A stretch of DNA of 21,967 bases from a virus. This document shows, one piece after another, positions 97-14,487 of the stretch. The DNA is taken from positions 1 to 21,967 of IMG/VR virus record IMGVR_UViG_3300023281_001185. One strand, 5' to 3'. Below the pieces are notes generated by a model. It ran no database searches, was not told where the DNA came from, and saw only the letters and a list, made by a program, of their open reading frames with translations. Made by a program: the position numbers and the translations under genes. The stretch's first letter is position 1. The number at the start of each line of letters is the position of its first letter.

Positions 97-1022
97 TCAG
101 CGCCGGTCGCACCCGTGGCACCCGTGGCACCGGCTGCGCCCGTTGCACCCGTAGCCCCCGTGTCACCCTTGCGGTAGAATTGCACCGAAACGGGGTCGTT
201 ATCGGCCAGCGCTGTGCCCCCAACGCCACCTGTCACAGTCAGGGTCGTCACGCCCGAACCGTTAGCCGCAGCCGTTACTGTGAACACCGCGACCTTAGCG
301 GACGTGACGGTATTACGAACGATCAACTCACCTACGTCCCAAGCGTTGACAAAACTGGAAAGATCGGCAGCGCTCTTATCCGCGTCAGCAATGAAAATTT
401 CAGTGACGCTGGCCACGGTCGCATGGTTGAAACGAATGTCACCGCCCGGAATACCAGCCGCAGCGGTGCCGGTATCGAACAGGTAGAGGAAACCGGGGTC
501 GCTGCCGTCTGCCCCGTCAGCACCATCTGCCCCGTCGCTCGGCCCCGTCGTCGTCTCAAGGTCCAGCCCATCGGCGGAAAATTTGAGATACTTGGACGCC
601 CGATCTGTCGCCCGGCCCACGCTGGTTGTCACGGCTTCCGAAGTCGGCTCAACCATCAGCGCCCGGTCAAACTTAGTCAGCAACCGCGACAAATGCCGAT
701 AGACCTGATCCATCGCATTGTTGAACAAGCTGGCAGTGAAGCCCGCGCGTGATCCGATATTGCTGGCCCGCTCAACGCTATCCGCCCACAAAACCGCGTA
801 ATATGTCGATCCGTCCGCTGGCGTTGTCAGTGTCACCACGCCCGACGACGTGCCCGCCCCCGTGACCGTGTAATCGGTATCAAGCACCAGCGGCGTGTCA
901 GACCCTTGCTTGTAAACCACCAGTTCCGCATTGGCGGCGAAGTAGAAATCAAGCCCGATTGTGTCCACACCGTTCGCCAGAAGCGACGGCCCGACCTGCA
1001 TATTGTTTTCAGTGTGCGCCAT
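1..1022 (-). CDS. Tail fibre protein, T7 gp17-type N-terminus with collagen-like repeats (3' end outside window)
   Basis: Open from an ATG at 1022 to the window edge: 340 complete codons are visible and the C-terminus is missing. The start overlaps the stop of the upstream gene as TAATG. Residues 1-125 resemble the N-terminal adaptor domain of T7-type tail fibres: a beta-rich stretch with a D-x-DYTVTGAG motif, then an x-T-ASLFNNAMDQ helix and a helix running to ALMVEP. Fibres of this family attach to the tail through this domain. A short Gly-X-Y run occupies about residues 160-174. A globular beta-rich segment follows (about 177-285), and from residue 286 an uninterrupted Gly-X-Y run of at least 18 triplets, mostly GAT and GAD, reaches the window edge. 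Such repeats form trimeric collagen-like shafts in phage fibres. The receptor-binding tip must lie beyond the window. The fold call is from pattern only. Confidence 0.85.
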   Translation of the reverse strand, partial: MAHTENNMQVGPSLLANGVDTIGLDFYFAANAELVVYKQGSDTPLVLDTDYTVTGAGTSSGVVTLTTPADGSTYYAVLWADSVERASNIGSRAGFTASLFNNAMDQVYRHLSRLLTKFDRALMVEPTSEAVTTSVGRATDRASKYLKFSADGLDLETTTGPSDGADGADGADGSDPGFLYLFDTGTAAAGIPGGDIRFNHATVASVTEIFIADADKSAADLSSFVNAWDVGELIVRNTVTSAKVAVFTVTAAANGSGVTTLTVTGGVGGTALADNDPVSVQFYRKGDTGATGATGAAGATGATGATGADGADGADGADGATGATGPSGADGADGADGATG

Positions 1023-3505
1023 TATCGGCCCCCGTCGCCTAGAGCGTTTTTCAGATCGGGAAGCCGAATGCTCGACCGCCCGCCACCAGTTGCCGCACCT
1101 GGTGGATAAAAGAATTGCGTGTCAAAGTCACGCGCGGACTTCCTTTTTCGCCGGAAGGATCGGCTTGCATCCGGGTTCAGGATATCTTCAAGACGGTCCA
1201 TAACCTCCCGTTCCCAAAGCATATCGGCAAACCAAAGGTTGCCGCCCGGCGTGTAGTTGCGGCCCAGTCGCACAAACTCTGCGCCCGCGTTGGTTTCCTC
1301 GCCGCGCACCACGTTCTGCACATTGCCCAGCGTCGCCCCAACAATATCGGTGCCCAGCCCCAGCGTCGGCCCGCCCAGCGTTGTGCCCAGCCCGCCGCCA
1401 AAGCGGTTGTGATCCGTAAAAATGAAATCCCCGAAGATGCCCAGCCCGCCACCCTGAGCCATTGCCGCGACCCAGAATTTGGCCGTCGTCATGTCCTTTG
1501 GATCGCGGCCCGCTGCAATCTCTTTCAACTGTATGGCCACGCCGCCCAGAATTGTGTTCCAGATCAGCAGTTGCGCCGCATAGTTCGCCGCCGTCAGCGG
1601 TCGCCCGTCGAATGCCTCGGAAACCGACCGCGCAACGTGCGTCATCAGAACCGTCAGGGAAAAACTGCGAAACTGAAACACGGCCCGCGCCGTCTCGCCC
1701 GTCAGTGTGCCGGGTTTCGATTGCCCGATAACAGCCGCCCGGCCTGATATCGTCGCGCTGGGCACCGCAAACTCTATGTCGCGATAGATGCCCGCCATCC
1801 AGCGATCAGCCGCCTCCTGGCCCGCCGCCTTGCGCACCGCGTTCATGCCCATAACCTCAAGCCCGGCGAAGTCGTCCATGTCGCCCGCGCGCATCAAGTC
1901 CCAATCGCCTTCGGTCAGCCCCATCTTTTGCAGAAACCGGCGTTGACGCGGGTCCAACTCGCCCCAGCCCTTATCACGCGCGGCAGCAAATGCCCGCATC
2001 CGCGACGTGCCCGCCGCCGTCCGGTGCGTTTCGGTCAGGAAGCCAAGGCCGGACATACGAATAACGCTTTCGGCAATGCCCGCGCTCGACTTCATAACCA
2101 TATCTTCCAGGTCATGCCGCGCGGCAGCCGCGCCATAGTCCAGTCCGACGGACAGGATCAGCCCCAGGTCGCCCGCCGCCTCACGATTGGCCCCGGATGC
2201 TGCCAGTCGCACAAAGTCACTCAGAAATTGAAACTGCCCCACGCCGACGAATTTGGCAGAAACACGCTGCGAGTTGAAATCCGAGATCGAAGAAATCACC
2301 GCCTTGCCCAGCAGAGACGCCGAAAGCCAGTTGCGGGTTGCCGCCATTGTGGCCGCCATCCGCTCGTTGACCGGCACGTTGGTTTCCCCGGTGAACAGCC
2401 GAAACTTACTTTCGGCCTGATAGAGCCGTTTTTCAAACAGCTTGAGCGCATCCTTTTCGCCGGATCGTGCCGCGATGCCCCGCGCGCCATCCTTGAGCCA
2501 GGCCCATGAATGCGTCGGGTTTGGCCCTAGCACTTCCATCATGGCAATATCGCGCGCCATGCTGTCCAGATGCCGCAGCATTGTGTCGAAAGGATCGGCC
2601 CCGCCGCCGAATTGCTCGTTGTAGGACGCCCAGCTATCCGCGTCCTTGAAGATCAGAAAGCGGTGATCGGATCGGCGTTTTGCCATCATGCCCCGGCCCG
2701 CGTGTGCGGTCGGGTTGCGGCTGGCGTGGCCGTCGGTGCGGATATCTTCGTTGACCCGATCCAGTATTGCCCGGCGCTTTGCGGCGCTATAGGGAACGCC
2801 CCCATTGTCGCGCTCGGCCATCGCGTCCCAATCAAGCAGGCCGTCGGTCGCGTCGGCCCACTCGCCGGGCCGGGCACCCCGCACCTTATTCGTGTCATGC
2901 CATTGCGGCATGTTCCAGCGCGCCAGCTTGGCAATATCGCCGCCTGCCGCGTTGAACCTGGTGCGCGCCCGCTCGGCGGTGTCGGCCCACACCTTAGCAA
3001 AGCCCTTGGCCTGGGCGTCGCCCGTTTCCTCGCCGAATACCTCGCGCAGCGTGTCCATCATCAGCGCTTTTTTGCGGCGCATGGTCAGGGCATTGCGGCG
3101 GAATGTCCGCATGGCCTCGCTCATCGGCCCTTTGAGGTAGGATCGGACGGCATGATACTGCCCGGTCATGGTTTGCCCGGCATAGGTGCCGCTTGGATCC
3201 TCCACCATTGCAGACAGTGCCGCCGCCGGGTTGATCTTGCCGGTCAGGGTGCGATGCTCTGACAGTTCATCAGTGCGGCGCTTGAGCGTTGATCGCGTCA
3301 GGCCCGTGCGGCGACGGCGCTGGAATGTTTCCTGGCGTGTCCGGTCGAGGATCGCCCGCGCCGCAGCCGCGTCGGCCTGCACGTCGCCCATGGCCGCGCC
3401 CATGTCGGCGGCCTCGCTTGCGTGTTCCTCCAATAGTTCGCGCGCGCGCTCTGGTGGAATGTGCCCGTCATCGACGGCGCGGCGGATGCAGTCACCAAAA
3501 CTCAT
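1022..3505 (-). CDS. gp16-like internal virion (DNA ejection) protein, 827 aa
   Basis: ATG at 3505 is preferred over the in-frame TTG at 3514 because AGAGG lies 10 bases upstream and the ATG overlaps the previous stop as ATGA. The N-terminal third is charged and helical (Arg-rich, about residues 45-80). Residues about 645-745 are Gly-rich and hydrophobic and could be membrane-active. The C-terminus, from about residue 746, has a YTPGGNLWFADMLWERE segment followed by an RRKRKSARD basic stretch and a final PDL. This tail is characteristic of large ejection proteins in podoviruses with T7-like virions. Such proteins leave the head with the DNA and help span the cell envelope. No lytic transglycosylase motif of the kind found in T7 gp16 was seen; a wall enzyme may instead sit in the protein encoded at 7167-10523. 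The assignment rests on position, size and the C-terminal motif. Confidence 0.75.
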   Translation of the reverse strand: MSFGDCIRRAVDDGHIPPERARELLEEHASEAADMGAAMGDVQADAAAARAILDRTRQETFQRRRRTGLTRSTLKRRTDELSEHRTLTGKINPAAALSAMVEDPSGTYAGQTMTGQYHAVRSYLKGPMSEAMRTFRRNALTMRRKKALMMDTLREVFGEETGDAQAKGFAKVWADTAERARTRFNAAGGDIAKLARWNMPQWHDTNKVRGARPGEWADATDGLLDWDAMAERDNGGVPYSAAKRRAILDRVNEDIRTDGHASRNPTAHAGRGMMAKRRSDHRFLIFKDADSWASYNEQFGGGADPFDTMLRHLDSMARDIAMMEVLGPNPTHSWAWLKDGARGIAARSGEKDALKLFEKRLYQAESKFRLFTGETNVPVNERMAATMAATRNWLSASLLGKAVISSISDFNSQRVSAKFVGVGQFQFLSDFVRLAASGANREAAGDLGLILSVGLDYGAAAARHDLEDMVMKSSAGIAESVIRMSGLGFLTETHRTAAGTSRMRAFAAARDKGWGELDPRQRRFLQKMGLTEGDWDLMRAGDMDDFAGLEVMGMNAVRKAAGQEAADRWMAGIYRDIEFAVPSATISGRAAVIGQSKPGTLTGETARAVFQFRSFSLTVLMTHVARSVSEAFDGRPLTAANYAAQLLIWNTILGGVAIQLKEIAAGRDPKDMTTAKFWVAAMAQGGGLGIFGDFIFTDHNRFGGGLGTTLGGPTLGLGTDIVGATLGNVQNVVRGEETNAGAEFVRLGRNYTPGGNLWFADMLWEREVMDRLEDILNPDASRSFRRKRKSARDFDTQFFYPPGAATGGGRSSIRLPDLKNALGDGGR

Positions 3506-6500
3506 TTCAGGCAAACCTCTGCAATGTCTAGCGTTTCGTCAATTTCATCCAGTTCTGCCGCAACGTCGTTCGGGTTGCGCTTTTCAAACACAACATCGCC
3601 CGCATCGTCCAGCCGGTCGCCCGGCATGGTATCAAACAAGTCCTTGAATGTGGGGTTGTCTGGATCGCGCTCGGCGATCAAGTCCTCTAGGTCGGTTTGG
3701 CGTTCGCCAACTTCAGGCCCTTCGACACCGCCTCGCGCATTGCCTGGCTCGGTTCCGGCTCCGGGTTCAGTTCGCGCCGCAGGTAGGCCGAAGCTGGTCC
3801 CGTCGAATGGGTTTTCCCCTTGGATTTCGCTGATTGCTTTTGGGTCATCTATCCCCCCGTTGTTGTCGATTTCTGCAAAGCCGTCCGCAGCGTCCTGGTC
3901 GCGCAATGACCGGAACACCGCGGCAGGCTTATCGCCCACTGCGTCCACATACTCCGGCGCGATCAAGCGCCCGGTATTCACAAATCTAAGGATCATGCGG
4001 CGGTAGGCTTCGGCTGGTTCAACCGCCATGCTCGCCACACGGACAACATAGCCTGCTTCACGTAGCTTTGCAATAACCCTGGCGATACTTGCCTCATTGC
4101 CGCCGACCTTGGGAATGACCAGGTTTTCGCCCTCGGCCATCATGCCATCCATCAGGGCATTGGCAAGATCGCTGCTTTCCTCATGTGTGGCATTCGCGCC
4201 AATGCCGCCGTCATATTCGGGCAGGGTTGCCTTAATGTCGTCAGGGTCGATGATTGCCGCGCGCTGCGCCTTCGCGATCTTATTGGCAACCGTGGATTTC
4301 CCGGCGGCAGGCGGCCCCAGAACAATCGTGGCCGTGCGGTCCTGGCCTGTTTCCCCCGCTTGCTCGCGCGCCTTGGCGACCCATCGCGGCACGGCCTCGG
4401 CGGTGCCGGTGACGGTTTCGCCATCGAAATCATAAGACCGCGTTGCGTGCCAATCGTCGCTGTCGTAGCCCGGCGCGTCGCGGGTTTCCGGGCGCGCTGC
4501 CATGTCTTCCAGCGCTTGCACCACCGCCGGATGATTGTCGATAACCTCGCGCTCGATGCCGGTTTCGACAATCGCAGCCAGATCGGACAGGAGGTCGCTA
4601 TCGTCCTGAAACGCCTCGCGCGGCTCGTCCGCAATCGGTCTAACTACCTTTTCATACCCCTGGTCAAGCGCGTCCCTGTAGGCAGCTTGGAAACTATCGT
4701 GGTGCGTGTCGCCGCTCGGACCCTTATCGTCAAGATAAGTAATGCGCGCGCCGGGCTGGCCATCCATGCGAGGGCCGACAAGCGCTTTTAACTTGCCATT
4801 GCGGGTTTCCAAGCGGGCAGGCATACCCGTCGCCGCCAACGCATCGGCCAGAACGCGCCGCGCATCGCTAAGGGCCGCGCTCAACGTCATGTACAAATCT
4901 AGCTTGTTGTCTCCAGCGGTGCCCGCCTCAACCTCGGCTTCTAGTGCTTCCCAATCGGCGCGAACCTCGTTCAAAGCATCTTCGGCGTCGGCCACCACTT
5001 CATCAGCGGATTGCCCCCCTTCCGGCTCGACTGTATCGCGGATCGGGTTCGCCGCTACTTGTTCGCGTTGCGCCTCGCTGCCTCGTTCCCCGACGGCGGC
5101 GTTGTGGTCAGGTGCTTGAGCGCTCTGGCCTTGATTATCGCCATCCGGTCCTGCGCGGCTGCCTGTAGCCCCGTCAAGATCGCCTCGTTCAATTCCTCGT
5201 CGGACAGCATCGGCGACGGCTTGGGCTGCGTCTTTGATTTTGCCGGTGTCTTTGTAGCTTTTCGCGCCATCGTTCAGAGCCTCCGAAATCGGTCCCGCCC
5301 GGTGCGCCAGTTTTTTGACCAGCGCCATCGCGGTTTCCGTGGTTTGCCTTATCGCCGCATTGGACGCCTGGTCCAGCCGGTTTTCGCCCGCCGACGTGAT
5401 CCGGTCGCCCCGCTCGGTCAGGGTGCGGAATGTCGCCTTGTCCTCGCCCAGAATGCGCAGAGCGCGGTCCAGCACCTTGGCCTTTTCCGCGAACAGGCTT
5501 TCGGTCGTGACGCTTTCCCCAAACAGATCGGAAGTGACTTCCTTTGTGCGCGGCGCGTTCAGGGCTTGGTCAATGATGCTTTCGGCTTGCGCCAGGTTCG
5601 CGGGTTTCAGGCGTTCCAGCAGCCGCATGATCGGCAGGTGCAGCGCCTTGTCCTCGACCATGCGGCCAACGGCAGCGGAAAAGTTTTGCGGCACAACCTC
5701 GTTGATGAACAGCCCGAATGCGTCGTCACTCAACCGCGTCAGGTGCGTGGCGACAATCGTTCCCGGCCCGACAGGCAGATTTTCAATGACCTCTGGCGCA
5801 ACGCGCAAGACCTTGGCTGCATCGCGTGCCATGGCCGCCGTCATCCCGTCTGCGGCTTCCGCAATGTTCTTGATCGCGCCCGCCACACGCGCGGCCTCGA
5901 CCGACACGCCGTCGCTTTCCCGCAAGACCTCGGCCAGCAGGCGGATATCCTGGGATGGATCGCGCTTCATTATCCGTTGCGCAAGGCTGACGCGCTGGTG
6001 CCCATCCACAATCGCGCGGGTGCCGTCCTTGAATTCGTAGACGATAACCCGGCCCGACAGGCTGTTGTCCCATTCAGGATCATTGCGCAGCTTGTCCGTT
6101 ACCCCGGAAGCGTCAGCATCACTTTTGAATTGAAACTGGCCCGGCATTATTTTCAGATCGGCGGCCCTGACTTCATCGACGGCACCATACAGCAGCGCCC
6201 CGCCAGGTGCCGTGTCAAAGATCGGCCTGTCCGGTTGCGGCTCGCCCACCGCCGCGCGCGTCTCACGCTGACGCGCCTCGCCCGCCGATAGCACATCGGT
6301 TTCGGTTGCTGCGGCTGCGGCATCGTCCAGATCACGGGCAATCCGTGCGCCCACAGCTTGAGCGTCCGCGCGCCCGGTGTCCTGCAAGCCTTTGGCAAGG
6401 GTGCGGCGTTCCTCTGGCGTGCCGCCCCCCTTGAGCGTGCGGATCAGTGCCCCCGGCCCCTTGAACAGCGCCACAAAGCCAGCACCAAAGGCCGCGCCAA

Positions 6501-7170
6501 ACAGGGCATTGACCCAAACGCTTTCCGGCTCATCGCCAATCGCTTCGAGATAGGCGTTGCGGCTCGGCGTTATTCCCGCCTCAATCCCAGCATTCAGCGC
6601 GCTTTCAATCGCCAGCGTACCCCAAAAGCCAATTCGGGCAGGTGCGCCGATTGCCAGCGTGGCCAGGTTTTCAGGGTGCGTGAATTGTGCGCCAAAGCCA
6701 CCGATCAAGGCCCCGGCGGTTCCAGCGACCGGCCCAGCGGCACCAATGCGCCGTTCCTGGAATTCGCGCAGTTCCAGATCGCTTTCCGCCTTGTCGTTGC
6801 GGCTTTCCTGCACCGCTGTAACGCCAAATTGCTCTGGAACCTCGACGCCCCCCCGCGTCAGGATTTCATTAAGCGCGCCCAGGTCGCCGCTTACGTCGCC
6901 CATGTCAGGCGCGGAACCATCATCGAAGGCAGACAGGCCCAGGCGGTCCTCAAGGTCCAACAGTGGGTCAATCGGTTGATCTTCTGGCCAGTTGTCAAAT
7001 GCGAAATCAAGGTATTCCTCGTATGCCGACTGGTTGAATTTTTCGTCACGCCGCGCATCCATTGGTGCCTCAAGCCCAAAACTGGCACCGATGGACGACA
7101 ACAGCCCAGCCCCGCCGCTCAGATCGGCAACCTGCCCGCGCGGTGCGGCTGTTTTAATCCAATCCGTCAC
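3502..7170 (-). CDS. Polyvalent virion protein with DdrB-like ParB domain and zeta-toxin-like kinase domain, 1222 aa
   Basis: GTG at 7170 overlaps the previous TGA as GTGA; an upstream TTG at 7191 lacks a ribosome site. Two hydrophobic Gly/Ala segments (about 143-178 and 218-245) suggest membrane contact. Residues about 330-630 fit the DdrB-like ParB-superfamily module: a VDGHQR motif at 388-393, then the long helical extension typical of this family, including a DLFGES segment near 548-553. A Gly-rich linker (about 635-720) holds a nested ORF. Residues about 795-850 resemble a polyvalent-protein-associated domain. Residues about 945-1085 form a zeta-like P-loop kinase: GPPAAGKST at 952-960, IDPDDIK near 974-980 and an RxxxRxxxxxRLIAPE stretch. 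Known family members are phage or plasmid proteins delivered with DNA to counter host defences. Location between ejection genes supports co-ejection; activity is inference. Confidence 0.8.
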   Translation of the reverse strand: MTDWIKTAAPRGQVADLSGGAGLLSSIGASFGLEAPMDARRDEKFNQSAYEEYLDFAFDNWPEDQPIDPLLDLEDRLGLSAFDDGSAPDMGDVSGDLGALNEILTRGGVEVPEQFGVTAVQESRNDKAESDLELREFQERRIGAAGPVAGTAGALIGGFGAQFTHPENLATLAIGAPARIGFWGTLAIESALNAGIEAGITPSRNAYLEAIGDEPESVWVNALFGAAFGAGFVALFKGPGALIRTLKGGGTPEERRTLAKGLQDTGRADAQAVGARIARDLDDAAAAATETDVLSAGEARQRETRAAVGEPQPDRPIFDTAPGGALLYGAVDEVRAADLKIMPGQFQFKSDADASGVTDKLRNDPEWDNSLSGRVIVYEFKDGTRAIVDGHQRVSLAQRIMKRDPSQDIRLLAEVLRESDGVSVEAARVAGAIKNIAEAADGMTAAMARDAAKVLRVAPEVIENLPVGPGTIVATHLTRLSDDAFGLFINEVVPQNFSAAVGRMVEDKALHLPIMRLLERLKPANLAQAESIIDQALNAPRTKEVTSDLFGESVTTESLFAEKAKVLDRALRILGEDKATFRTLTERGDRITSAGENRLDQASNAAIRQTTETAMALVKKLAHRAGPISEALNDGAKSYKDTGKIKDAAQAVADAVRRGIERGDLDGATGSRAGPDGDNQGQSAQAPDHNAAVGERGSEAQREQVAANPIRDTVEPEGGQSADEVVADAEDALNEVRADWEALEAEVEAGTAGDNKLDLYMTLSAALSDARRVLADALAATGMPARLETRNGKLKALVGPRMDGQPGARITYLDDKGPSGDTHHDSFQAAYRDALDQGYEKVVRPIADEPREAFQDDSDLLSDLAAIVETGIEREVIDNHPAVVQALEDMAARPETRDAPGYDSDDWHATRSYDFDGETVTGTAEAVPRWVAKAREQAGETGQDRTATIVLGPPAAGKSTVANKIAKAQRAAIIDPDDIKATLPEYDGGIGANATHEESSDLANALMDGMMAEGENLVIPKVGGNEASIARVIAKLREAGYVVRVASMAVEPAEAYRRMILRFVNTGRLIAPEYVDAVGDKPAAVFRSLRDQDAADGFAEIDNNGGIDDPKAISEIQGENPFDGTSFGLPAARTEPGAGTEPGNARGGVEGPEVGERQTDLEDLIAERDPDNPTFKDLFDTMPGDRLDDAGDVVFEKRNPNDVAAELDEIDETLDIAEVCLK
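5055..5270 (-). CDS. Candidate nested out-of-frame gene, 71 aa basic protein
   Basis: A complete ORF in another frame of the polyvalent gene, starting with ATG at 5270. GGAGG lies nine bases upstream, one of the best ribosome sites in the window. The product has a Lys/Thr/Pro-rich basic N-terminus (about residues 1-19), an acidic-to-hydrophobic helix starting at MLSDEELNEAIL, and a basic C-terminal tail. By hand count, G or C occupies the third codon position in 56 of 71 codons of this frame. The host frame across the same bases has 37 of 71. A sample of the host gene's kinase region gives about 70 percent. The overlap falls in a low-complexity linker between the ParB-like and kinase-like domains, where the host protein can tolerate constraint. 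No family was recognised. It could still be a chance ORF. Confidence 0.42.
   Translation of the reverse strand: MARKATKTPAKSKTQPKPSPMLSDEELNEAILTGLQAAAQDRMAIIKARALKHLTTTPPSGNEAARRNANK
5280..5284 (-). promoter_or_regulatory. Ribosome binding site of the nested ORF
   Basis: GGAGG on the minus strand, nine bases before the ATG at 5270. It sits in the coding sequence of the polyvalent protein, where a perfect Shine-Dalgarno at ideal spacing is not needed for that gene. Confidence 0.45.
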
Positions 7171-10100
7171 TGGCCACGCCCAAGCGCCCAAAGGCGCGAA
7201 ACGTCAAGTTCAACCGTCGATCCGTCCTCATAAATAAACGTGTTGCCAAAATCATCGGCAGGGAAAAACTTGTACTGATTGCCCGGCACCGGGTTCATCT
7301 GGCCAACCAGGCCCATGAATTGCCCAAACGGAATTGGCTTGCCGTAGGTGTCAAACGGCTGGGCACCCAATCCGATTTCCAAAAACTGCGGGTTGCTCGC
7401 CACACCCATCGCATTGTTGAACACTTCGGTCGTCCATTTATCGGGCAGAATAACCGGGCCAAAGTTGCTATTGTAAACACCGCCCGCCTTGGTCGCGCTG
7501 TCCATGCCGAATGCAACCTCGTAGCCCATCTGCATGTGCTTATCTTCGACCTCGGCCTTGTTATCCCGCGCCGCAAAGCCAATCGCGTAATGCTCCGCGA
7601 TATCCTCAACGCGCGACAGGGTGCCGACAGCGAAGTAGCCAGCCGCAATCGCCGCGCCCGCGACCTCTTGCCTGATAGTGTGCCGGTCGATTTTATTCGG
7701 AATGGTCAGGTCGCTTTCGGTCCCAAACAGCATGACCTCCGCATCCTGCGTCCGGCCCAGCCGCGCCATTGAACCGGCGATTGCGTACATGCCATTCCCG
7801 CCCAGCGCTTCCAGAACCGCCGTTGACTGTTCCATCGGCAATTCTGCCAGCCCTTCCAGGAATTCAATGCGCGCTGTTGCCGACAGTTCGGTATCGTCCA
7901 ACAATCCTTTGAGCCGTGTCTTTTCGGCGGCGTCCAGCGGAACCGGCGTCAAAACGCCCTCACCCTCGGCGGCAAGGCTCACATCAAGCACACGCTGCGC
8001 AACCTGCGCGCCCAGGTCGCCAGTCGTTTCACCGTCCAGCGGGATAACCTCGATCCCCTTGGCCTTGGCGAAACTCGTGGCGTCGCTGCGCGCCATTTCC
8101 GTCAAGTTGGTACTCCACTCGTCCAGCTTGCCCAGAACCTCGCCAATGAACACGCCCTCTTTGCCGTAGCCCTTGCCCTCGGCGGCCAGATCGTTCAGCC
8201 GTTCCTGAATTGCCGTCATCGCGTCATCGCGCTGATCGGCGGTCAGGTCGGTCATATCGCCGATTGTATCATAAACCGTTTTTGCCTGGGCGATCTGTTC
8301 CAGCAATTCCGGCTTGCCTGCGGCCTGCGCCTCCATTCCGGCCCAGTCAATTTCATCAAGAACCGTGCCCTCCACCGTTGCATCCAGAATTGTGTTCACG
8401 CCTGTCATGTCGGCGGTGATGCCCTTTTGAAGTTCTTTCAGCTTATGTTCGAGTTGAAGAATGACGGCGGTTGCCTCGTCATCTATTTCGCCGCGCTCGG
8501 CAGCGGCTTGAAGCTGGGTTTTCTGACTGTTGATATACGCGCTCAGTTCCCCGCCGGTCATGCCGTGCGTGGCAACGGCAGCGTCAGCCGTGGCGAATGC
8601 AACCTCGGCTTCGCGCTGCAATGCCGGGTAGCCCTCAAGATCGGCCAGGATCGCGGCCCGTTCCTCGGCGGGAATGGCAATCGGCGCACCGGCTTCGGTC
8701 ATCGACACGTAGGGGTTGATCGTTTCCGTCGTGTGCTTTTTCAGCGTGGCGGCAGCGGCCCGCGCCGCCGCTTCCTTCTGCGCCTGTTCTGCCCGCACCC
8801 CGACCTCAAGCTGGCCCAGCAGTTGAAGCGCCTGACCCGGCGGCAGGGGCGACCGGCCCGCGAAAATCTCTTTCCTCATTTCCGAGACAAACGCGCCCTT
8901 GGCGGTCGATCTCTCGAAATCCCCCCGGATCATCATTTCTGCCGAAGCGTCACCCATCGCCTGCATTTGCGCGCCCATCTGCGCAACGCTCATGATCCCC
9001 GCGCGCGCCCGATCAGCAGGGTAGTCCACACCGTTGAAGGTGAACGCCTCACGCGGCCCGAATTGCGCAAGCTGGCGCTGTGTGCGGACCAGGTGCCCCT
9101 GGATTTCCGACGTGCTGGCACCGGACAGAGCCAGCCATTGCGCTTGTTCGTTTGCCGCATCGACCGCCATGTTGAAGGCTTCGGTTTGCCCGGCAATCGT
9201 CTTTTTCTCGATCTGCCCGATTGCCTGCCGCACCGCCACGCCGCGTTGCGTTTCGAATTCGGTTTCCATGTCGATTGCAAGGCCGGTCATCGACGCGGGA
9301 AGATCACCCATGACCTGCGAGCGTAGGGCGTCCATCTGTTGATTGAGCGCGCCCAGGTCGCCGCCCGCTTCCATCGCAGCAATAGAGGCCCCGGAATAAA
9401 GCGCCTGCCGCGCCCGCGCGCCAATCACGCGCTCTGCGGCCTCGTTGAATGCAGCGTCATAATAGGTAAACGGCAAGCGGCGCTCGAATGATGCGCCCCC
9501 CGTCGATACCAGTTCCATATCCGGCATTTGCGGAATGAAATTGCCGTCAGGCCCAGCGGCCACCGGCCCGACCTCAACGCGGGTTTGCCCATACTTGCGC
9601 CCGCCCGCCGCTCGGCCCTCGCGGACGGCGGCCAAAAGTGTCAGGTCGCCGTTGAATTCATCGTGATCTTGGCCGCGTGTGTTCGGCCCCCAAAACATTT
9701 CATTGCCGCCGCCAATGTGAACGCCCCAGCCATAATGCCCAATGCCCGGAAAATATGGTGCAGCGGCACGGAACAGTTTGGCGTAGGCTTTTTTATTCTG
9801 ATCGGGCGTAACATCTTTGCCGTTGTAGCTCAGCACAAAGTCAGCCGTGCCCGATTTCCCGTGATCGTGTACATCGTGCCGGGTTGATCCGGTGCGGCGC
9901 GCATTGACAAACTTGGCGATATCCACCGGGTTCGTGATGCCCCGCGCAGCCGCCATCTGTTTTAGCTGGTTTTCGGAATACTGACCGCCCGACTTGACGC
10001 GCACGTCCCAGCCCTTGCCCAGCGATCCGGCGACAATCGCCGAAACCGTCGCCATGTATTCATCTGTCAGCCCGCGATTTCGCCTGGCCCCCGGCGTTTT

Positions 10101-10523
10101 GTCGCCCATTCCCAGGAAGCCCGGCAGGATAAACGTCGCATTGGCCGCCGTGACCGGCGCGGCACCACCCCCTGCGGCCCCCTGAGCGAGGTTAGGGCGG
10201 GCTTTAGGCCTGGGCGGTTTCTGCGCAGTCGGCAGGTTCGGCCCCTGCACCGGGCGTGCATCAAGCCCTGCGATGGTTCCCGCGCTGGCGGCCTCTTGTG
10301 ATCGCACTTCCCAGGACGGCCCGCCGGTTTCGACCTCGCCCAGCAGATCGGTTTCGGCTTGCCGCTTGCGAACCTCCATAGCCGCCGGGCGCAGAAAATC
10401 GGATGCAGCGCCCAACACGCTTGCGAAGCCAGCCATGGCCCGCGCTTCGCCGTCCAGAACGGGCTGCGGCCCCTGCACCATCGGGTCAACGCGGGACGGG
10501 CCATAGCGACGGACATTAGCCAT
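7167..10523 (-). CDS. gp15-like internal virion protein with N-terminal M15-like peptidase domain, 1118 aa
   Basis: ATG at 10523 has AAGGAG nine bases upstream; the gene overlaps the previous one by eight bases. After a low-complexity leader, residues about 130-290 look like a zinc peptidase of the M15 (D-Ala-D-Ala peptidase-like) type: VKSGGQ near 176, a GSTRHD motif at 212-217, then a His-rich HDHGKSGTADF segment (219-229), and GWGVHIGG at 265-272 followed by MFWGP. Likely ligands are H216 or H221, D228 and H269. Relative to the usual RHD-x-G-x-A-A-D pattern a few residues appear inserted, so activity is uncertain. Residues about 300-1000 are long Ala/Glu-rich helices, as in the gp15-type ejection tube protein. 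The inferred role is local cleavage of peptidoglycan during DNA entry plus part of the ejection conduit. Confidence 0.7.
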   Translation of the reverse strand: MANVRRYGPSRVDPMVQGPQPVLDGEARAMAGFASVLGAASDFLRPAAMEVRKRQAETDLLGEVETGGPSWEVRSQEAASAGTIAGLDARPVQGPNLPTAQKPPRPKARPNLAQGAAGGGAAPVTAANATFILPGFLGMGDKTPGARRNRGLTDEYMATVSAIVAGSLGKGWDVRVKSGGQYSENQLKQMAAARGITNPVDIAKFVNARRTGSTRHDVHDHGKSGTADFVLSYNGKDVTPDQNKKAYAKLFRAAAPYFPGIGHYGWGVHIGGGNEMFWGPNTRGQDHDEFNGDLTLLAAVREGRAAGGRKYGQTRVEVGPVAAGPDGNFIPQMPDMELVSTGGASFERRLPFTYYDAAFNEAAERVIGARARQALYSGASIAAMEAGGDLGALNQQMDALRSQVMGDLPASMTGLAIDMETEFETQRGVAVRQAIGQIEKKTIAGQTEAFNMAVDAANEQAQWLALSGASTSEIQGHLVRTQRQLAQFGPREAFTFNGVDYPADRARAGIMSVAQMGAQMQAMGDASAEMMIRGDFERSTAKGAFVSEMRKEIFAGRSPLPPGQALQLLGQLEVGVRAEQAQKEAAARAAAATLKKHTTETINPYVSMTEAGAPIAIPAEERAAILADLEGYPALQREAEVAFATADAAVATHGMTGGELSAYINSQKTQLQAAAERGEIDDEATAVILQLEHKLKELQKGITADMTGVNTILDATVEGTVLDEIDWAGMEAQAAGKPELLEQIAQAKTVYDTIGDMTDLTADQRDDAMTAIQERLNDLAAEGKGYGKEGVFIGEVLGKLDEWSTNLTEMARSDATSFAKAKGIEVIPLDGETTGDLGAQVAQRVLDVSLAAEGEGVLTPVPLDAAEKTRLKGLLDDTELSATARIEFLEGLAELPMEQSTAVLEALGGNGMYAIAGSMARLGRTQDAEVMLFGTESDLTIPNKIDRHTIRQEVAGAAIAAGYFAVGTLSRVEDIAEHYAIGFAARDNKAEVEDKHMQMGYEVAFGMDSATKAGGVYNSNFGPVILPDKWTTEVFNNAMGVASNPQFLEIGLGAQPFDTYGKPIPFGQFMGLVGQMNPVPGNQYKFFPADDFGNTFIYEDGSTVELDVSRLWALGRGQ

Positions 10524-11058
10524 AATCGCTCACTCCTTTTGCCAGAATGCCCGCGCCGGTTCCAAACGATCCGAGCAGCGCCGCGCGGCCTTCGCTCAAA
10601 AGCCCCCGGCGACGACGGCGCGCAAGGCGCATTCGGTTTTGGTAGTTGTTGCGGTTGGTGTTCAGATCGCGCCCGGCCTCGGCGCTGGTGGCCTCACGAA
10701 TTTGCCGGGCCGTGCCCACTGCCGGATTGACCCCGTTGGCGATCTGCACAACCTGTTGCTCGGAAATCAGCGCCTCATATTCCTTGGCCAGCTTGCGCTG
10801 ATTGGCGGACCCTGCCGCCCCCTCCTGCGCTTCGGTCACACTGGCTTCGTTGGCCGCATCTTGCGCCGCTCGGTTGGCGGATACCCCCGCCGCAATTGTG
10901 GTCAGCGCCCGGAAAACGGACAGGCCCTTTGCCAGCCCCAGCGAGGCCGCGCCGACCGGCCCGGCAACCGCCGTCGCCGATGCCCCCGCCGTCGCCGATG
11001 CCCCCGCCGCGCCAAGCGCGCCGATCCCTTTTCCGATAGCGAGAAACATTGTCGCCAT
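10516..11058 (-). CDS. gp14-like internal virion protein, 180 aa
   Basis: ATG at 11058 is chosen over a TTG at 11064, with GAGG eight bases upstream. The N-terminus is hydrophobic and Gly/Ala-rich, with a duplicated GASATA unit (about residues 1-60). An Ala/Gln/Glu-rich helical region follows (about 60-130), then an Arg-rich stretch with five consecutive arginines near residue 150 and a small hydrophobic tail. Size, position directly after the tail nozzle gene and this composition match gp14-type ejection proteins, which enter the outer membrane first. Sequence motifs for the family are weak, so the name rests mainly on gene order. Confidence 0.65.
   Translation of the reverse strand: MATMFLAIGKGIGALGAAGASATAGASATAVAGPVGAASLGLAKGLSVFRALTTIAAGVSANRAAQDAANEASVTEAQEGAAGSANQRKLAKEYEALISEQQVVQIANGVNPAVGTARQIREATSAEAGRDLNTNRNNYQNRMRLARRRRRGLLSEGRAALLGSFGTGAGILAKGVSDYG
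10973..11008. repeat. Perfect 18-bp tandem duplication
   Basis: Bases 10973-10990 are repeated exactly at 10991-11008, in frame within the gp14-like gene. They encode two copies of a Gly-Ala-Ser-Ala-Thr-Ala type unit in the hydrophobic N-terminus. This is probably a recent slippage event. Confidence 0.8.
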
Positions 11059-11060
11059 GG

Positions 11061-13823
11061 TCAAAACCTCGCGTCATAAGTGATAAACCGGATTGCCCAC
11101 GGCCCCGGCTCACTTTGCGTTAAAACAAGTGTCGGCTCAACTGCCCAGCCCCGCAGGCCGCTGATCCGCTTTGTGCCCGTGAAATTCAAGTCGTCGGCCA
11201 CCGGGTCCACATCTAACGCGCCCCAGCGTTGCAGCGGCACCGTCCGTTGCGGCCCAGTGCCGATGCCAATGGTGCAAGTCGCGGTGCGATAGAACGAAAT
11301 CAGCGCCCGGAAAATTCGCATGTTCTGCATTGTCGGCGACGTTTCGCCCTTGCCCTTCGGCGGATGCAGTTCAAGACGCGGCACCATGAACAGCCCGACC
11401 TCGGCCTGTTGATCCACACGGAATTCGCCCAGGTCTATCGTGTTGCTGGACGGCGTAAACCGCCCCACGCTCTTGCCGTCATTGTTCACCTGTACCTCAA
11501 TGCCCTCAAAGCGCTCGGCCACGTCGGAAAGGTCGAGCGACGCCATCCTTGGAAGGATACGAATGGCGTCGCCCTCACTGCGACCAACGGCAAAGGTCAC
11601 AGTTTTCGCGCTCAAGTCCAGCGTGTAATCGCTCGCCGACAACGGGCGATAAACACCGCTTTCCTCGAACATGACCAGCATATCGCCTTCCTCGGTTGGC
11701 GATGTGAATGTGTAGGTGAACACTGTTTGATCGGCAGAGGCGTCAAAGTCCTCAATGTCGGGATTGTCGATGAAGGTTGAGCAATCATTCAGGCAGTCCG
11801 GGTCAAACAGTTCGATGTAGTTCCAGGCATTCCCGGCCAGGGTGCGATAGACAACCGCCGATGCCAGGCTGGATCGCGTGGCGACAAATGCCTTGAATGT
11901 GCCCAGGCGCGTCGTCATGCGCAGGAAGGCCGCGACGGATTGCACACGGTCAATCACCACGCGCGCCGCTGGCACCATGTCGCCCGCCTCATCGTTGCCG
12001 CTGTTGGCCACGAGCAACATTGTCGGCGTCCATGCGTTCTGCGCCCGGCGCAGCGCCAGCGACAGAGGATCGGAAACCAGATGACCGGCCAGCAGTGAAA
12101 TCGGCTCGGCGGAATAGGATTGCTCGTTGTCCTCGAACAGATATTCGCGCAGCGCCGTGCCGGATGCGTCCGCAAACACCGTTGCGCCCTGCACGTCTGC
12201 GGTGCGGGTGTTGGGCCTCACGCCATGGCGCGACGTGTTCTTGAACGCCACGTTGTCGGGCGTGATCGGTTCCGTTGGCGTATAGAATTCGCCCGCCGAT
12301 GTGAACAGTTGAAGGTGACGGCCCGACACGATCCGCTCAACCGTCACTTCCTCGTCAACGCGCGGCTCAACAACGATTGGCGAGGCGGCCACCGGGTCCA
12401 GTTCCTCGCGGAAGTCGGCCACATCACCGGCCCGGCTTGCCGCCAGAACGCCAGGCCGGGCCTTGAAGCCACCAAGCCAGAACCGGCCCTGGTGGAACGC
12501 GCCGCAAGACGGATAGCCCCGGTCTGCGCCCCATAGATCATCAGTCGCCGCCTTGCCGTTCTGCATCCGCGTGACGTTGGCGTTGCCCCCGCCGGTCGCC
12601 AGGTCGAAGATCAAAACCGCGATTGACCGCCCGGCGTCGTCGCCGTCGAATTCATACTCATAATCGCTATTGCCCTTGTCCGTCACTGTGACGCTGGAAA
12701 ACTGCGGCAGGCTTTCGATTGCGTTTTTGATCCGCGTCATGTTGGTCGATGAAGTGTTTGACCATGTGATTGTGTCGGTGCGTTCGCCCGCGAATTCGAT
12801 CACATACTCGTCGTTATTGGACATGCTTTGGAAGTCCGCAATCTGGACCTCGTTTTGTGCCGGGTATGTTGTCGCGTCATCGAATGGAAAGGCAACAATC
12901 GTGTCGAATTCATAATTTCCGCCGCGCCAATCGCTTTCATCATCAAGGCGCTGCACCACAAACGGATGCACGTCCTGGTGAAACAGAACCATTGTATCAA
13001 GGTCGGCGGTTGAATTGATCGCGTCAATCTGCGCTTCCGTGTGCGGAATGGCAATCGCGGCAACAAACGCGCCCGTCACCGAGTTGAACACGTCGGCATT
13101 CAGGGCGGTCAGGATGATCTTGAATTGCGCGTCGCGCTCGGTCGCAATCTCATGCTCGGAAATCGCGCCCAGCGTCGCGCCGCTGTCCGACTGGCTGGCC
13201 TCGGTCCACACGCGCGCCTCTGTAAACTGCACCTTGGCGGTGTCCAGATCATCGGTCCCGGCGCGGACCAGGCGCATATACCGGGCATTGAACAGGTGCG
13301 CATCGGGCGCGGCAGCAAACCGGCGATCATAGGCCGTGGCCCCCACGTTGATCGTGGCCGCCACGCTCCATGCCGCATCGTCGGTCGAATAATGCAACTC
13401 CATGCTGGCGCTGGTGATGCCGCTGGGCAGCGTCGTGAATTGCAGGTCGGTGAAATCGACAAAATCGACCTCTTGGGCCGACCCGAAATCAAGGTGCGCA
13501 ATCACATAGTCGTCGGTCGTGCCCACGCTGGTTGTCGTCAACAGCGCCGTTGCCTCGTCGTCGTCGTCAATGTTCCCCGCAGTGCCGCCGCTGGTCGCGG
13601 TCCAGGTGCCGCTTGCCGTCGTGTCAACCTGAGACAGTGCCCCGCGTTGCGGGTAACTGTGCCGCGTTCCCTCGCGTCGGCCAAACCGGCCTTGCGCAAG
13701 CGACGTAATGTTCTCGATAATGCGCGCGGAATTGTAGAACGGCCCGATATCCTCACGCCCCCAGGCGTCGGGCTGCAACTCGCCTGCGGCCAGCGAATGC
13801 TGAGTGTGGCGCATAACCGGCAT
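11061..13823 (-). CDS. Tail tubular protein B / tail nozzle (gp12-like) with inserted discoidin-like domain, 920 aa
   Basis: ATG at 13823 overlaps the previous stop as TAATG, with GGGGA upstream. Residues 1-60 show the nozzle N-terminus: LAAGELQPDAWGREDIGPFY followed by RFGRREGTRH. The middle holds the common nozzle motif GYPSCGAFHQGRFWLGG (about 436-452) followed by a SRAGDVADF stretch, seen in gp12-like proteins of podoviruses. Between them, residues about 65-206 look like an F5/8 type C (discoidin/CBM32-like) beta-sandwich: HLDFGSAQEVD, then SMELHYSTDDAAWS, then ARYMRLVRAG and a closing EARVW. That domain usually binds carbohydrates. The protein is longer than T7 gp12 (about 790 residues), in keeping with an insertion. 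It forms the distal tail tube; the extra domain could bind host surface glycans, which is inference. Confidence 0.85.
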   Translation of the reverse strand: MPVMRHTQHSLAAGELQPDAWGREDIGPFYNSARIIENITSLAQGRFGRREGTRHSYPQRGALSQVDTTASGTWTATSGGTAGNIDDDDEATALLTTTSVGTTDDYVIAHLDFGSAQEVDFVDFTDLQFTTLPSGITSASMELHYSTDDAAWSVAATINVGATAYDRRFAAAPDAHLFNARYMRLVRAGTDDLDTAKVQFTEARVWTEASQSDSGATLGAISEHEIATERDAQFKIILTALNADVFNSVTGAFVAAIAIPHTEAQIDAINSTADLDTMVLFHQDVHPFVVQRLDDESDWRGGNYEFDTIVAFPFDDATTYPAQNEVQIADFQSMSNNDEYVIEFAGERTDTITWSNTSSTNMTRIKNAIESLPQFSSVTVTDKGNSDYEYEFDGDDAGRSIAVLIFDLATGGGNANVTRMQNGKAATDDLWGADRGYPSCGAFHQGRFWLGGFKARPGVLAASRAGDVADFREELDPVAASPIVVEPRVDEEVTVERIVSGRHLQLFTSAGEFYTPTEPITPDNVAFKNTSRHGVRPNTRTADVQGATVFADASGTALREYLFEDNEQSYSAEPISLLAGHLVSDPLSLALRRAQNAWTPTMLLVANSGNDEAGDMVPAARVVIDRVQSVAAFLRMTTRLGTFKAFVATRSSLASAVVYRTLAGNAWNYIELFDPDCLNDCSTFIDNPDIEDFDASADQTVFTYTFTSPTEEGDMLVMFEESGVYRPLSASDYTLDLSAKTVTFAVGRSEGDAIRILPRMASLDLSDVAERFEGIEVQVNNDGKSVGRFTPSSNTIDLGEFRVDQQAEVGLFMVPRLELHPPKGKGETSPTMQNMRIFRALISFYRTATCTIGIGTGPQRTVPLQRWGALDVDPVADDLNFTGTKRISGLRGWAVEPTLVLTQSEPGPWAIRFITYDARF

Positions 13824-14275
13824 TAATAGTATCCCCGCCCGCCGTAGTGACCAAAGCGCGCCTCGGTCATCGGGTCGCTGTCGTCCAGCAGGCTTTCAGT
13901 CGGGCGACCTACCTCATCGGCCTGGGCTGCGCTCATGAACATACCGCCCTTGCCGCTATCGGACGGATTGCCAAACGCCTTGACGTGCAAGCGCTCAGCC
14001 TGCGCACCATTTTCGGTGATCGGCACACACAGTTCCGCCGCCAGCCCCCACACGGCCAGGCTTTCGAAGTATGCTGGCCACAGCCCCTCATTGACGCGCG
14101 CCGCGTAGCGCACCGTGACGCTCGTCGCGTCGGTCAGAAGGTGACGGCCTGAGATTTCCCACCCCTCGACCACCGGGCTTGCGCCGGTCGATGACGAAAA
14201 GAACCCCGCCAAGTGCGGTCCATCGCGACCGGCGGCCCCAGTGCATCGCTCGGCAGCAGAAACGCCCGCGTCCAC
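13823..14275 (-). CDS. Tail tubular protein A, C-terminal part (downstream frame of a frameshifted gene)
   Basis: The frame is open from just after a stop upstream of 14275 to a TAA at 13823-13825. Only the part from about 14220 onward looks like tail tubular protein A: VEGWEISGRHLLTD, then VTVRYAARVNEGLWPAYFESLAVWGLAAELC, the usual central block of gp11-like gatekeeper proteins. The GTG at 14275 lacks a clear ribosome site, and the first 20 or so residues are a shadow of the other frame. The upstream half of the same protein is encoded at 14134-14487. Together they would give about 221 residues, close to the family length. The two frames differ by -1. The cause may be a base missing from the sequence, a true mutation, or frameshifting. 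Confidence 0.7.
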   Translation of the reverse strand: MDAGVSAAERCTGAAGRDGPHLAGFFSSSTGASPVVEGWEISGRHLLTDATSVTVRYAARVNEGLWPAYFESLAVWGLAAELCVPITENGAQAERLHVKAFGNPSDSGKGGMFMSAAQADEVGRPTESLLDDSDPMTEARFGHYGGRGYY

Positions 14276-14487
14276 TCATTCACCGGAACCGCCGCGCCAT
14301 CTTCGACCAGATCGGCCCGCTTGCGCAAGAAATACCAGTCTTTCGCCATCATCAGCGAACGGATGAACATTTCATAATGAAGGCCGCATTGCTCTGACTG
14401 GGCAGTGTCGTCCTCGAAGCTGGTAATCGGTTCCTCGCCCATCAAACCAAGCGCCTTGGAACATACATCAAACTGATCGTCGGCCAT
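14134..14487 (-). CDS. Tail tubular protein A, N-terminal part (upstream frame of a frameshifted gene)
   Basis: ATG at 14487, with only a weak AGAGA-type ribosome site, starts a frame with the expected gp11-like N-terminus: CSKALGLMGEEPITSFEDD, then SLMMAKDWYFLRKRADL, then EWTRAFLLPSDALGPPV. The family consistently has a Trp/Phe strand and an LPSD motif at this point. After about codon 90 the frame loses resemblance and ends in an Arg/Gly-rich tail at 14134, while the neighbouring frame (13823-14275) continues the family pattern. The switch must lie between 14275 and 14134, most likely near the G run at 14236-14239, the ATGGACC at about 14223-14217, or the G and T runs at 14204-14207 and 14197-14200. 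In the virion this protein joins portal and tail nozzle. Confidence 0.7.
   Translation of the reverse strand: MADDQFDVCSKALGLMGEEPITSFEDDTAQSEQCGLHYEMFIRSLMMAKDWYFLRKRADLVEDGAAVPVNEWTRAFLLPSDALGPPVAMDRTWRGSFRHRPAQARWSRGGKSQAVTF

Follow-up and report, generated by a model that had tools for sequence, protein, structure and literature searches.

The window analyzed here is a viral DNA stretch of 21,967 nucleotides (IMG/VR record IMGVR_UViG_3300023281_001185, positions 1 to 21,967). Its minus strand carries an open reading frame (ORF) for a protein of 1222 residues, in which an N-terminal core of ejection type is followed by a ParB/Noc-like module, a zeta-toxin-type kinase and a conserved tail (Table 1). 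Contigs in IMG/VR are fragmentary, and their hosts are not known. The original prediction, made from the sequence alone, had described this gene as an ejected polyvalent protein that combines a DdrB-like ParB module with a zeta-like kinase. The ORF itself is real, with the VDGHQR motif at residues 388 to 393 and GPPAAGKST at residues 952 to 960. It overlaps both neighbours by about 4 nucleotides, its start codon with the stop codon of the gene upstream (GTGA) and its stop codon with the start codon of the gene downstream (ATGA), an arrangement read from the sequence as that of a translationally coupled cassette. A sister contig, L002 (record of 35,363 bases), encodes a 100% identical protein of 1222 residues; the ORF is therefore not an assembly accident, and a sequencing artefact could be ruled out. 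A chance ORF was likewise ruled out, as intact homologous ORFs under purifying selection are present in dozens of contigs.

Table 1. Coordinates of the 1222-residue protein gene, its segments and the neighbouring cassette genes in the window
Feature	Position	Strand	Remarks
ORF of the ejection-type protein at the epsilon15 gp16 position	3502..7170	minus	1222 residues; GTG start 7170, stop 3502
N-terminal ejection-type core, residues 1-325	6196..7170	minus	Gly/Ala-rich; hydrophobic stretch from about residue 218; VP2 p18 homology
ParB/Noc-like module, residues 325-670	5161..6198	minus	ParB/sulfiredoxin fold and helical domain; AlphaFold, Foldseek, phrog_10691
DGHQR active-site-type motif, residues 389-393	5992..6006	minus	invariant in 45/45 aligned sequences
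Linker before the kinase, residues 690-854	4609..5103	minus	exceeds the linker of most relatives by about 130 residues; partly common to L077
Exchangeable slot module, residues 855-1125	3796..4608	minus	zeta-toxin-type P-loop kinase and N-terminal helical part; Pfam, AlphaFold, Foldseek
Walker A motif GPPAAGKST, residues 952-960	4291..4317	minus	K958 = zeta K46
Conserved C-terminal tail, residues 1165-1222	3505..3678	minus	DLFD..P...CLK; right slot boundary, kept across variants
Downstream neighbour, phrog_684 virion structural protein	1022..3505	minus	epsilon15 gp17 / phiV10 p20 family; PHROG E = 2.2e-155
Upstream neighbour, gp15-position internal protein	7167..10523	minus	1118 residues; 28% identity over 780 residues to SI2 DVVG_00007
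gp14-position small internal protein	10516..11064	minus	182 residues; 40% identity over 124 residues to SI2 DVVG_00006
Tail protein, tail tubular B type, cassette context	11061..13823	minus	phrog_376 E = 7.8e-56

The kinase and ParB modules

Residues 943 to 1103 matched the Pfam family Zeta_toxin (PF06414) with E = 2.4e-18 and 66.8 bits, against a gathering cut-off of 22.3. The AlphaFold model of residues 855 to 1125, built from 36 sequences, reached a predicted local distance difference test (pLDDT) value of 94.3. In Foldseek its top PDB match was zeta in complex with UDP-N-acetylglucosamine (UDP-GlcNAc) (3q8x, E = 1.7e-8, TM about 0.60), followed by zeta 1gvn, PezT and then AvrRxo1. The zeta-like kinase seen in the original prediction was thus borne out, and so was the polyvalent character of the protein, in which ParB-superfamily and zeta-type modules are joined in one ejection-type protein. 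The GC content of the kinase module does not stand out, and the linker in front of it holds a further small domain.

The residues of zeta were mapped onto the kinase by sequence alignment, not by superposition. K46, the catalytic base D67 and R158 of zeta correspond to K958, D977 and R1062, which are invariant in all 36 sequences. The published UDP-GlcNAc contacts E100, T118, R120 and T128 (PMC3062530), on the other hand, aligned with N1004, V1022, G1024 and V1032; valine occupies position 118 in 33 of the 36 sequences, and positions 100, 120 and 128 are variable. A PezT variant in which the corresponding threonine is changed to valine is non-toxic (PMC3062530). With these contacts replaced, the substrate is probably another metabolite, and we regard the module as active-looking with a specificity that is probably not for UDP-GlcNAc. 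UDP-GlcNAc phosphorylation, which the original prediction had named as the activity of zeta toxins, could therefore not be upheld as a settled function. No epsilon or PezA antitoxin gene adjoins the kinase gene; both flanking genes are phage structural genes and, since both overlap it, there is no room for one.

Residues 325 to 700 are, according to the structure model, a ParB-superfamily module. The model of this region (pLDDT 83.6, fold extending to about residue 700) found Noc 7nfu (E = 7.5e-5), ParB:CDP 6sdk and ParB:CTPgammaS 7bnr as its best PDB matches in Foldseek. The Noc/ParB matches had E values from 7.5e-5 to 1e-3 at a probability of 1.00 and took in the ParB/sulfiredoxin part as well as some of the helical region. 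A sequence search of the PDB with the ParB profile (A1) gave no relevant match, and the fold was settled by structure instead. The region also matched phrog_10691 (E = 6.2e-44), a profile of 3925 positions and unknown function, close in size to a polyvalent-type protein of 3912 residues from Ruegeria phage 45A6 that shares the ParB core. PF18763 (ddrB-ParB) had no match at E values up to 10, either on the protein or on the record. The ParB part of the original claim therefore stands on the fold and the invariant DGHQR motif, but the "DdrB-like" label is not established, and the antirestriction role proposed by comparison with the Dar system of P1 loses its support with it. The module is probably nucleotide-binding and DNA-contacting, and it may bind CTP, clamp DNA or cut DNA.

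The ParB core was also seen in proteins of 2100 to 4360 residues (L004, L036, L037, L039, L041, L044, L050, L052, L053 and L075). Various combinations of LPD38, helicase, methyltransferase, ART and zeta domains were present in those that were scanned. When the ParB alignment was scanned against genome contigs, only two long polyvalent-type proteins were found. A distant match to the ParB core lies in a 2563-residue protein in an ejection-type cassette of the cultured cyanophage P-SCSP1u (L136:7642-15333).

An exchangeable slot before the C-terminal tail

The ParB alignment and, as second query, the zeta alignment retrieved 124 loci, duplicates included, and 60 distinct loci have a ParB core and a phrog_684 gene directly downstream. 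Between core and tail a zeta module is encoded in 37 of these, a Tas1-like one in 14 and a RelA_SpoT one in three, while one locus (L019) has an unclassified module and five have nothing; zeta is over-sampled here by the second query, and the frequencies are not those of a survey. The scan with ParB only gave, for loci adjacent to phrog_684, 14 Tas1-like, three zeta and three RelA_SpoT modules, the module of L019, and four loci with none. The Tas1-like assignment is based on the profile of alignment A3, which matched the type VI secretion system toxin Tas1 (6ox6, E = 3.4e-12) and in which the catalytic residues of RelA/SpoT-homolog type, D63, R66, Y110, E125 and Q127, are invariant. RelA_SpoT was assigned by Pfam, in L047 and L043. 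The slot module of L019 (L019:10381-10980) gave a weak match to a RelA-type profile, and its close relative L020 has a zeta module in the same place.

The C-terminal tail is found whether a variant carries a zeta, a Tas1-like or a RelA_SpoT module or no module. The slot profile of the non-zeta variants matched the proteins with zeta for the most part in two separate stretches, the pattern to be expected if only the flanks are shared. A natural form without kinase is found in Dunaliella viridis virus SI2, whose syntenic homolog DVVG_00008 (792 residues) aligns to residues 52 to 690 with 41% identity and resembles the last 46 residues, the whole kinase region being missing. By these sequence comparisons the kinase is an optional module, the place of which is taken in sister phages by a Tas1-like module, a RelA_SpoT-type module or nothing, a feature that the original prediction had not contained.

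In places the exchange is recent, and it is mainly in the slot that the sequences of close relatives differ. L019 and L020 share 84% DNA identity over 10.3 kb; identity reaches 100% in parts of their cores and 98% in the last 60 residues, but their slots align at only 14 to 27%. Similarly, the ParB cores of L013 (empty) and L016 (Tas1-like) are 90 to 97% identical, with near-identical tails and an identical last stretch. In a quick tree of the ParB core, with several long branches, at least nine module changes are needed, and the eight-member clade of the window protein itself holds zeta, Tas1-like and empty forms. Values of dN/dS (nonsynonymous over synonymous substitution rates) were 0.05 to 0.22 for zeta modules and 0.07 to 0.10 for Tas1-like modules, by a simple Nei-Gojobori estimate with saturated pairs excluded and some high dS values; this corresponds to purifying selection as in the core.

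These exchanges bear on three other explanations of the kinase. An ejected zeta kinase might weaken the cell wall, making UDP-GlcNAc-3P and blocking peptidoglycan synthesis to ease penetration or later lysis, as has been proposed for the zeta domains of polyvalent and MuF proteins (PMC5512222). The fold and the invariant equivalents of K46, D67 and R158 agree with this, but the replacement of E100, T118, R120 and T128 by N, V, G and V, the prevalence of valine at position 118 together with the non-toxic PezT variant, and the fact that the replacements in sister phages are of Tas1 or RelA type, enzymes whose action is not on the cell wall, make it doubtful. Even less probable is that the kinase is mainly structural, or an ATPase or regulator for packaging or DNA translocation. 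It is located within a presumed structural protein and P-loop enzymes can power translocation, but relatives with intact cassettes lack the module or have it replaced by unrelated enzymes, and because of this a shared mechanical role is hard to reconcile with the data.

The third explanation is a polymorphic toxin aimed at rivals or at superinfecting phages, a role that has been put forward for MuF toxins. At the sequence level, a conserved putative delivery part was found together with exchangeable toxin-type domains, including Tas1-like ones, as in MuF/Apk2 proteins. No cognate immunity gene adjoins the slot gene, however: the cassette genes of the window overlap, leaving no room, and the swap between L019 and L020 adds no ORF between the module gene and the phrog_684 gene. 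An integrase was not detected in the eight records searched, several of which are incomplete. Exclusion of competitors thus appears unlikely.

The ejection-type cassette and the role of the protein

The gene occupies the gp16 position of a gp14-gp15-gp16 cassette, corresponding to gp14-gp17 of epsilon15. The upstream genes are homologous and colinear with those of SI2, and their order is also that of the internal virion proteins of phiV10. This gene order and the phrog_684 gene downstream support the placement of the gene in an ejection-type cassette. The N-terminus is homologous to p18 of Vibrio phage VP2 (hmmsearch E = 3.5e-18, hhalign 5.5e-12; best of 400 shuffled controls E = 0.24), a protein of 390 residues at the same cassette position that represents a minimal form, too short for ParB and kinase modules. 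Of the hydrophobic N-terminal segments noted in the original prediction, a single one, from residue 218, passed a 19-residue hydropathy test; the remaining N-terminus is Gly/Ala-rich and not clearly transmembrane. A resemblance of the C-terminal tail to phiV10 p19 seen by eye was dropped, its profile score being no better than that of shuffled controls.

On the basis of this synteny and the homology to VP2 p18, we infer that the protein is packaged in the virion and ejected. The best reading, to which we assign a probability of about 0.6, is that of a podoviral ejection protein at the epsilon15 gp16 position that doubles as carrier of an exchangeable ATP-using effector. The N-terminal 325 or so residues and the C-terminal tail would form the ejection chassis, the ParB/Noc-like module would act at the entering DNA, and the slot between this module and the tail would carry the exchangeable ATP-using enzyme, delivered with the genome. 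Once in the cytoplasm, the zeta-fold kinase would phosphorylate a small metabolite of nucleotide type, which is probably not UDP-GlcNAc, and early in infection push host metabolism to arrest or to use by the phage. Its place in the slot is taken in sister phages by a pyrophosphokinase of Tas1-like or RelA_SpoT type. Both main plug-ins, zeta-fold kinase and Tas1-like pyrophosphokinase, are of toxin type, and each would disturb nucleotide-linked metabolism. Apk enzymes act in this way by making (p)ppApp from ATP (PMC12226406), and by analogy the effect of the window kinase may be equivalent.

Several points weigh against this reading. Virion proteomics was not found for any family member, VP2 p18 is annotated as hypothetical only, and profile comparison of the N-terminus with phiV10 p19 gave no detectable sequence homology, leaving synteny as their only link. 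With its known substrate contacts lost, the kinase could also have a changed role that is not catalytic, although the retention of the catalytic residues and purifying selection argue against this.

If the ejection role holds, co-injection with DNA would also suit a function in counter-defence, in which the modules protect the incoming DNA by altering a defence-signalling nucleotide or nicotinamide adenine dinucleotide (NAD), or by anti-restriction like DdrB of P1. The related-fold kinase AvrRxo1, among the Foldseek matches, uses NAD, and DdrB is packaged in the P1 head. Neither PF18763 nor PADLOC gave a match, however, and the module that swaps with the kinase belongs to a known type of toxin, not to the defence inhibitors. 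We therefore hold counter-defence to be improbable, and antirestriction of the P1-DdrB type was rejected as the default reading because of the missing PF18763 match. The findings speak for effectors that are injected and exchangeable, not for an established anti-restriction factor.

Other features of the cassette and its relatives were recorded alongside. Residues 70 to 345, approximately, of the gp15-position protein have no counterpart in SI2 and are possibly a second optional enzyme module. By eye, its N-terminal stretch shows an M15-peptidase-like pattern (HDHGKSGTADF, WGVH); the idea of such a peptidase at residues 120 to 340 was abandoned, as neither PDB nor Pfam gave a match. At positions 1 to 1022 a tail fibre gene with collagen-like Gly-x-y repeats runs off the window, and its counterpart in L002 has a Collagen match in Pfam. 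At 14205-14217, about 17 extra bases relative to L002 (otherwise 99.88% identical) break the tail tubular A gene into ORFs 14134-14487 and 13823-14275; the gene is intact in L002, and the disruption is either an artefact or a local variant. L002 also carries Erf-type recombination genes. The record of SI2 (L003, "Dunaliella viridis virus SI2") contains a bacterial podophage structural cassette, and its recorded algal host is doubtful.

Relation to known systems and implications

The protein resembles polyvalent proteins (PMC5512222) in having several effector domains in one delivered protein and a gene beside virion structural genes, and ParB-type, zeta-type and RelA/SpoT domains all belong to the repertoire of phage and conjugative polyvalent proteins (PMC5512222). 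It differs from them in the missing PF18763 match and in its podoviral ejection-type chassis with one exchangeable slot, and no metallopeptidase domain was found in it by Pfam; the word "ejection" is not used in the main text of PMC5512222. MuF polymorphic toxins including Apk2 (PMC5576092, PMC12226406) likewise join a phage structural part to an exchangeable toxin domain, and Tas1/Apk-type domains are present in the sister proteins. The window protein is not a MuF protein, however, and its module is internal, between core and tail, whereas the MuF toxin is C-terminal. Unlike the MuF proteins of temperate phages, it has no immunity gene in its cassette, and the records searched had no detectable integrase. 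With the zeta toxins of the epsilon/zeta and PezAT systems (1gvn, 3q8x, 2p5t) the kinase shares the fold and the equivalents of the Walker A lysine, Asp67 and Arg158, but it lacks an antitoxin gene, has its UDP-GlcNAc contacts replaced and PKVG in place of EGTG, and is fused to an ejection-type protein.

Among ejection proteins, T7 gp14/15/16 and the internal proteins of epsilon15 and phiV10 are comparable in cassette order and position, with phrog_684 downstream, and the N-terminus is common to VP2 p18; the window protein differs in its ParB and kinase modules, and no lytic transglycosylase domain was detected in it. DVVG_00008 of SI2 has the same position and a similar C-terminal tail but is shorter and without kinase module. 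Mosaic exchange of the peptidoglycan-hydrolase domain is known for T7-type ejection proteins (PMC8954989). One late phage protein, gp114 of halovirus HCTV-5, carries both annotations ("zeta toxin and ParB nuclease domain protein"), but its zeta part is N-terminal of the ParB motif, its ParB is alignable only at the short motif, and no chassis is shared. In the literature searched, no paper with both "zeta toxin" and "ejection protein" was found, nor did we find a description of a podovirus ejection protein that has an exchangeable effector slot in its interior, lacks an adjacent immunity gene and shows natural swaps among closely related phages.

Extended to the group, the data leave it an even chance that these podoviruses inject with each genome one of several exchangeable metabolic enzymes, or none, without immunity genes. 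At the same even odds, the repertoire would comprise a zeta-type kinase of new specificity, a Tas1-like alarmone synthetase and a RelA/SpoT type. Secretion systems make similar use of exchangeable effectors; the podovirus slot, in contrast, would work without immunity genes. The natural close-relative swaps L019/L020 and L013/L016 make the function of an injected domain directly testable, and the altered pocket makes the zeta clade a candidate for kinases with a new substrate. If the reading is true, podophage ejection proteins would be delivery vehicles with a standard effector socket, beyond their role as DNA conduits.
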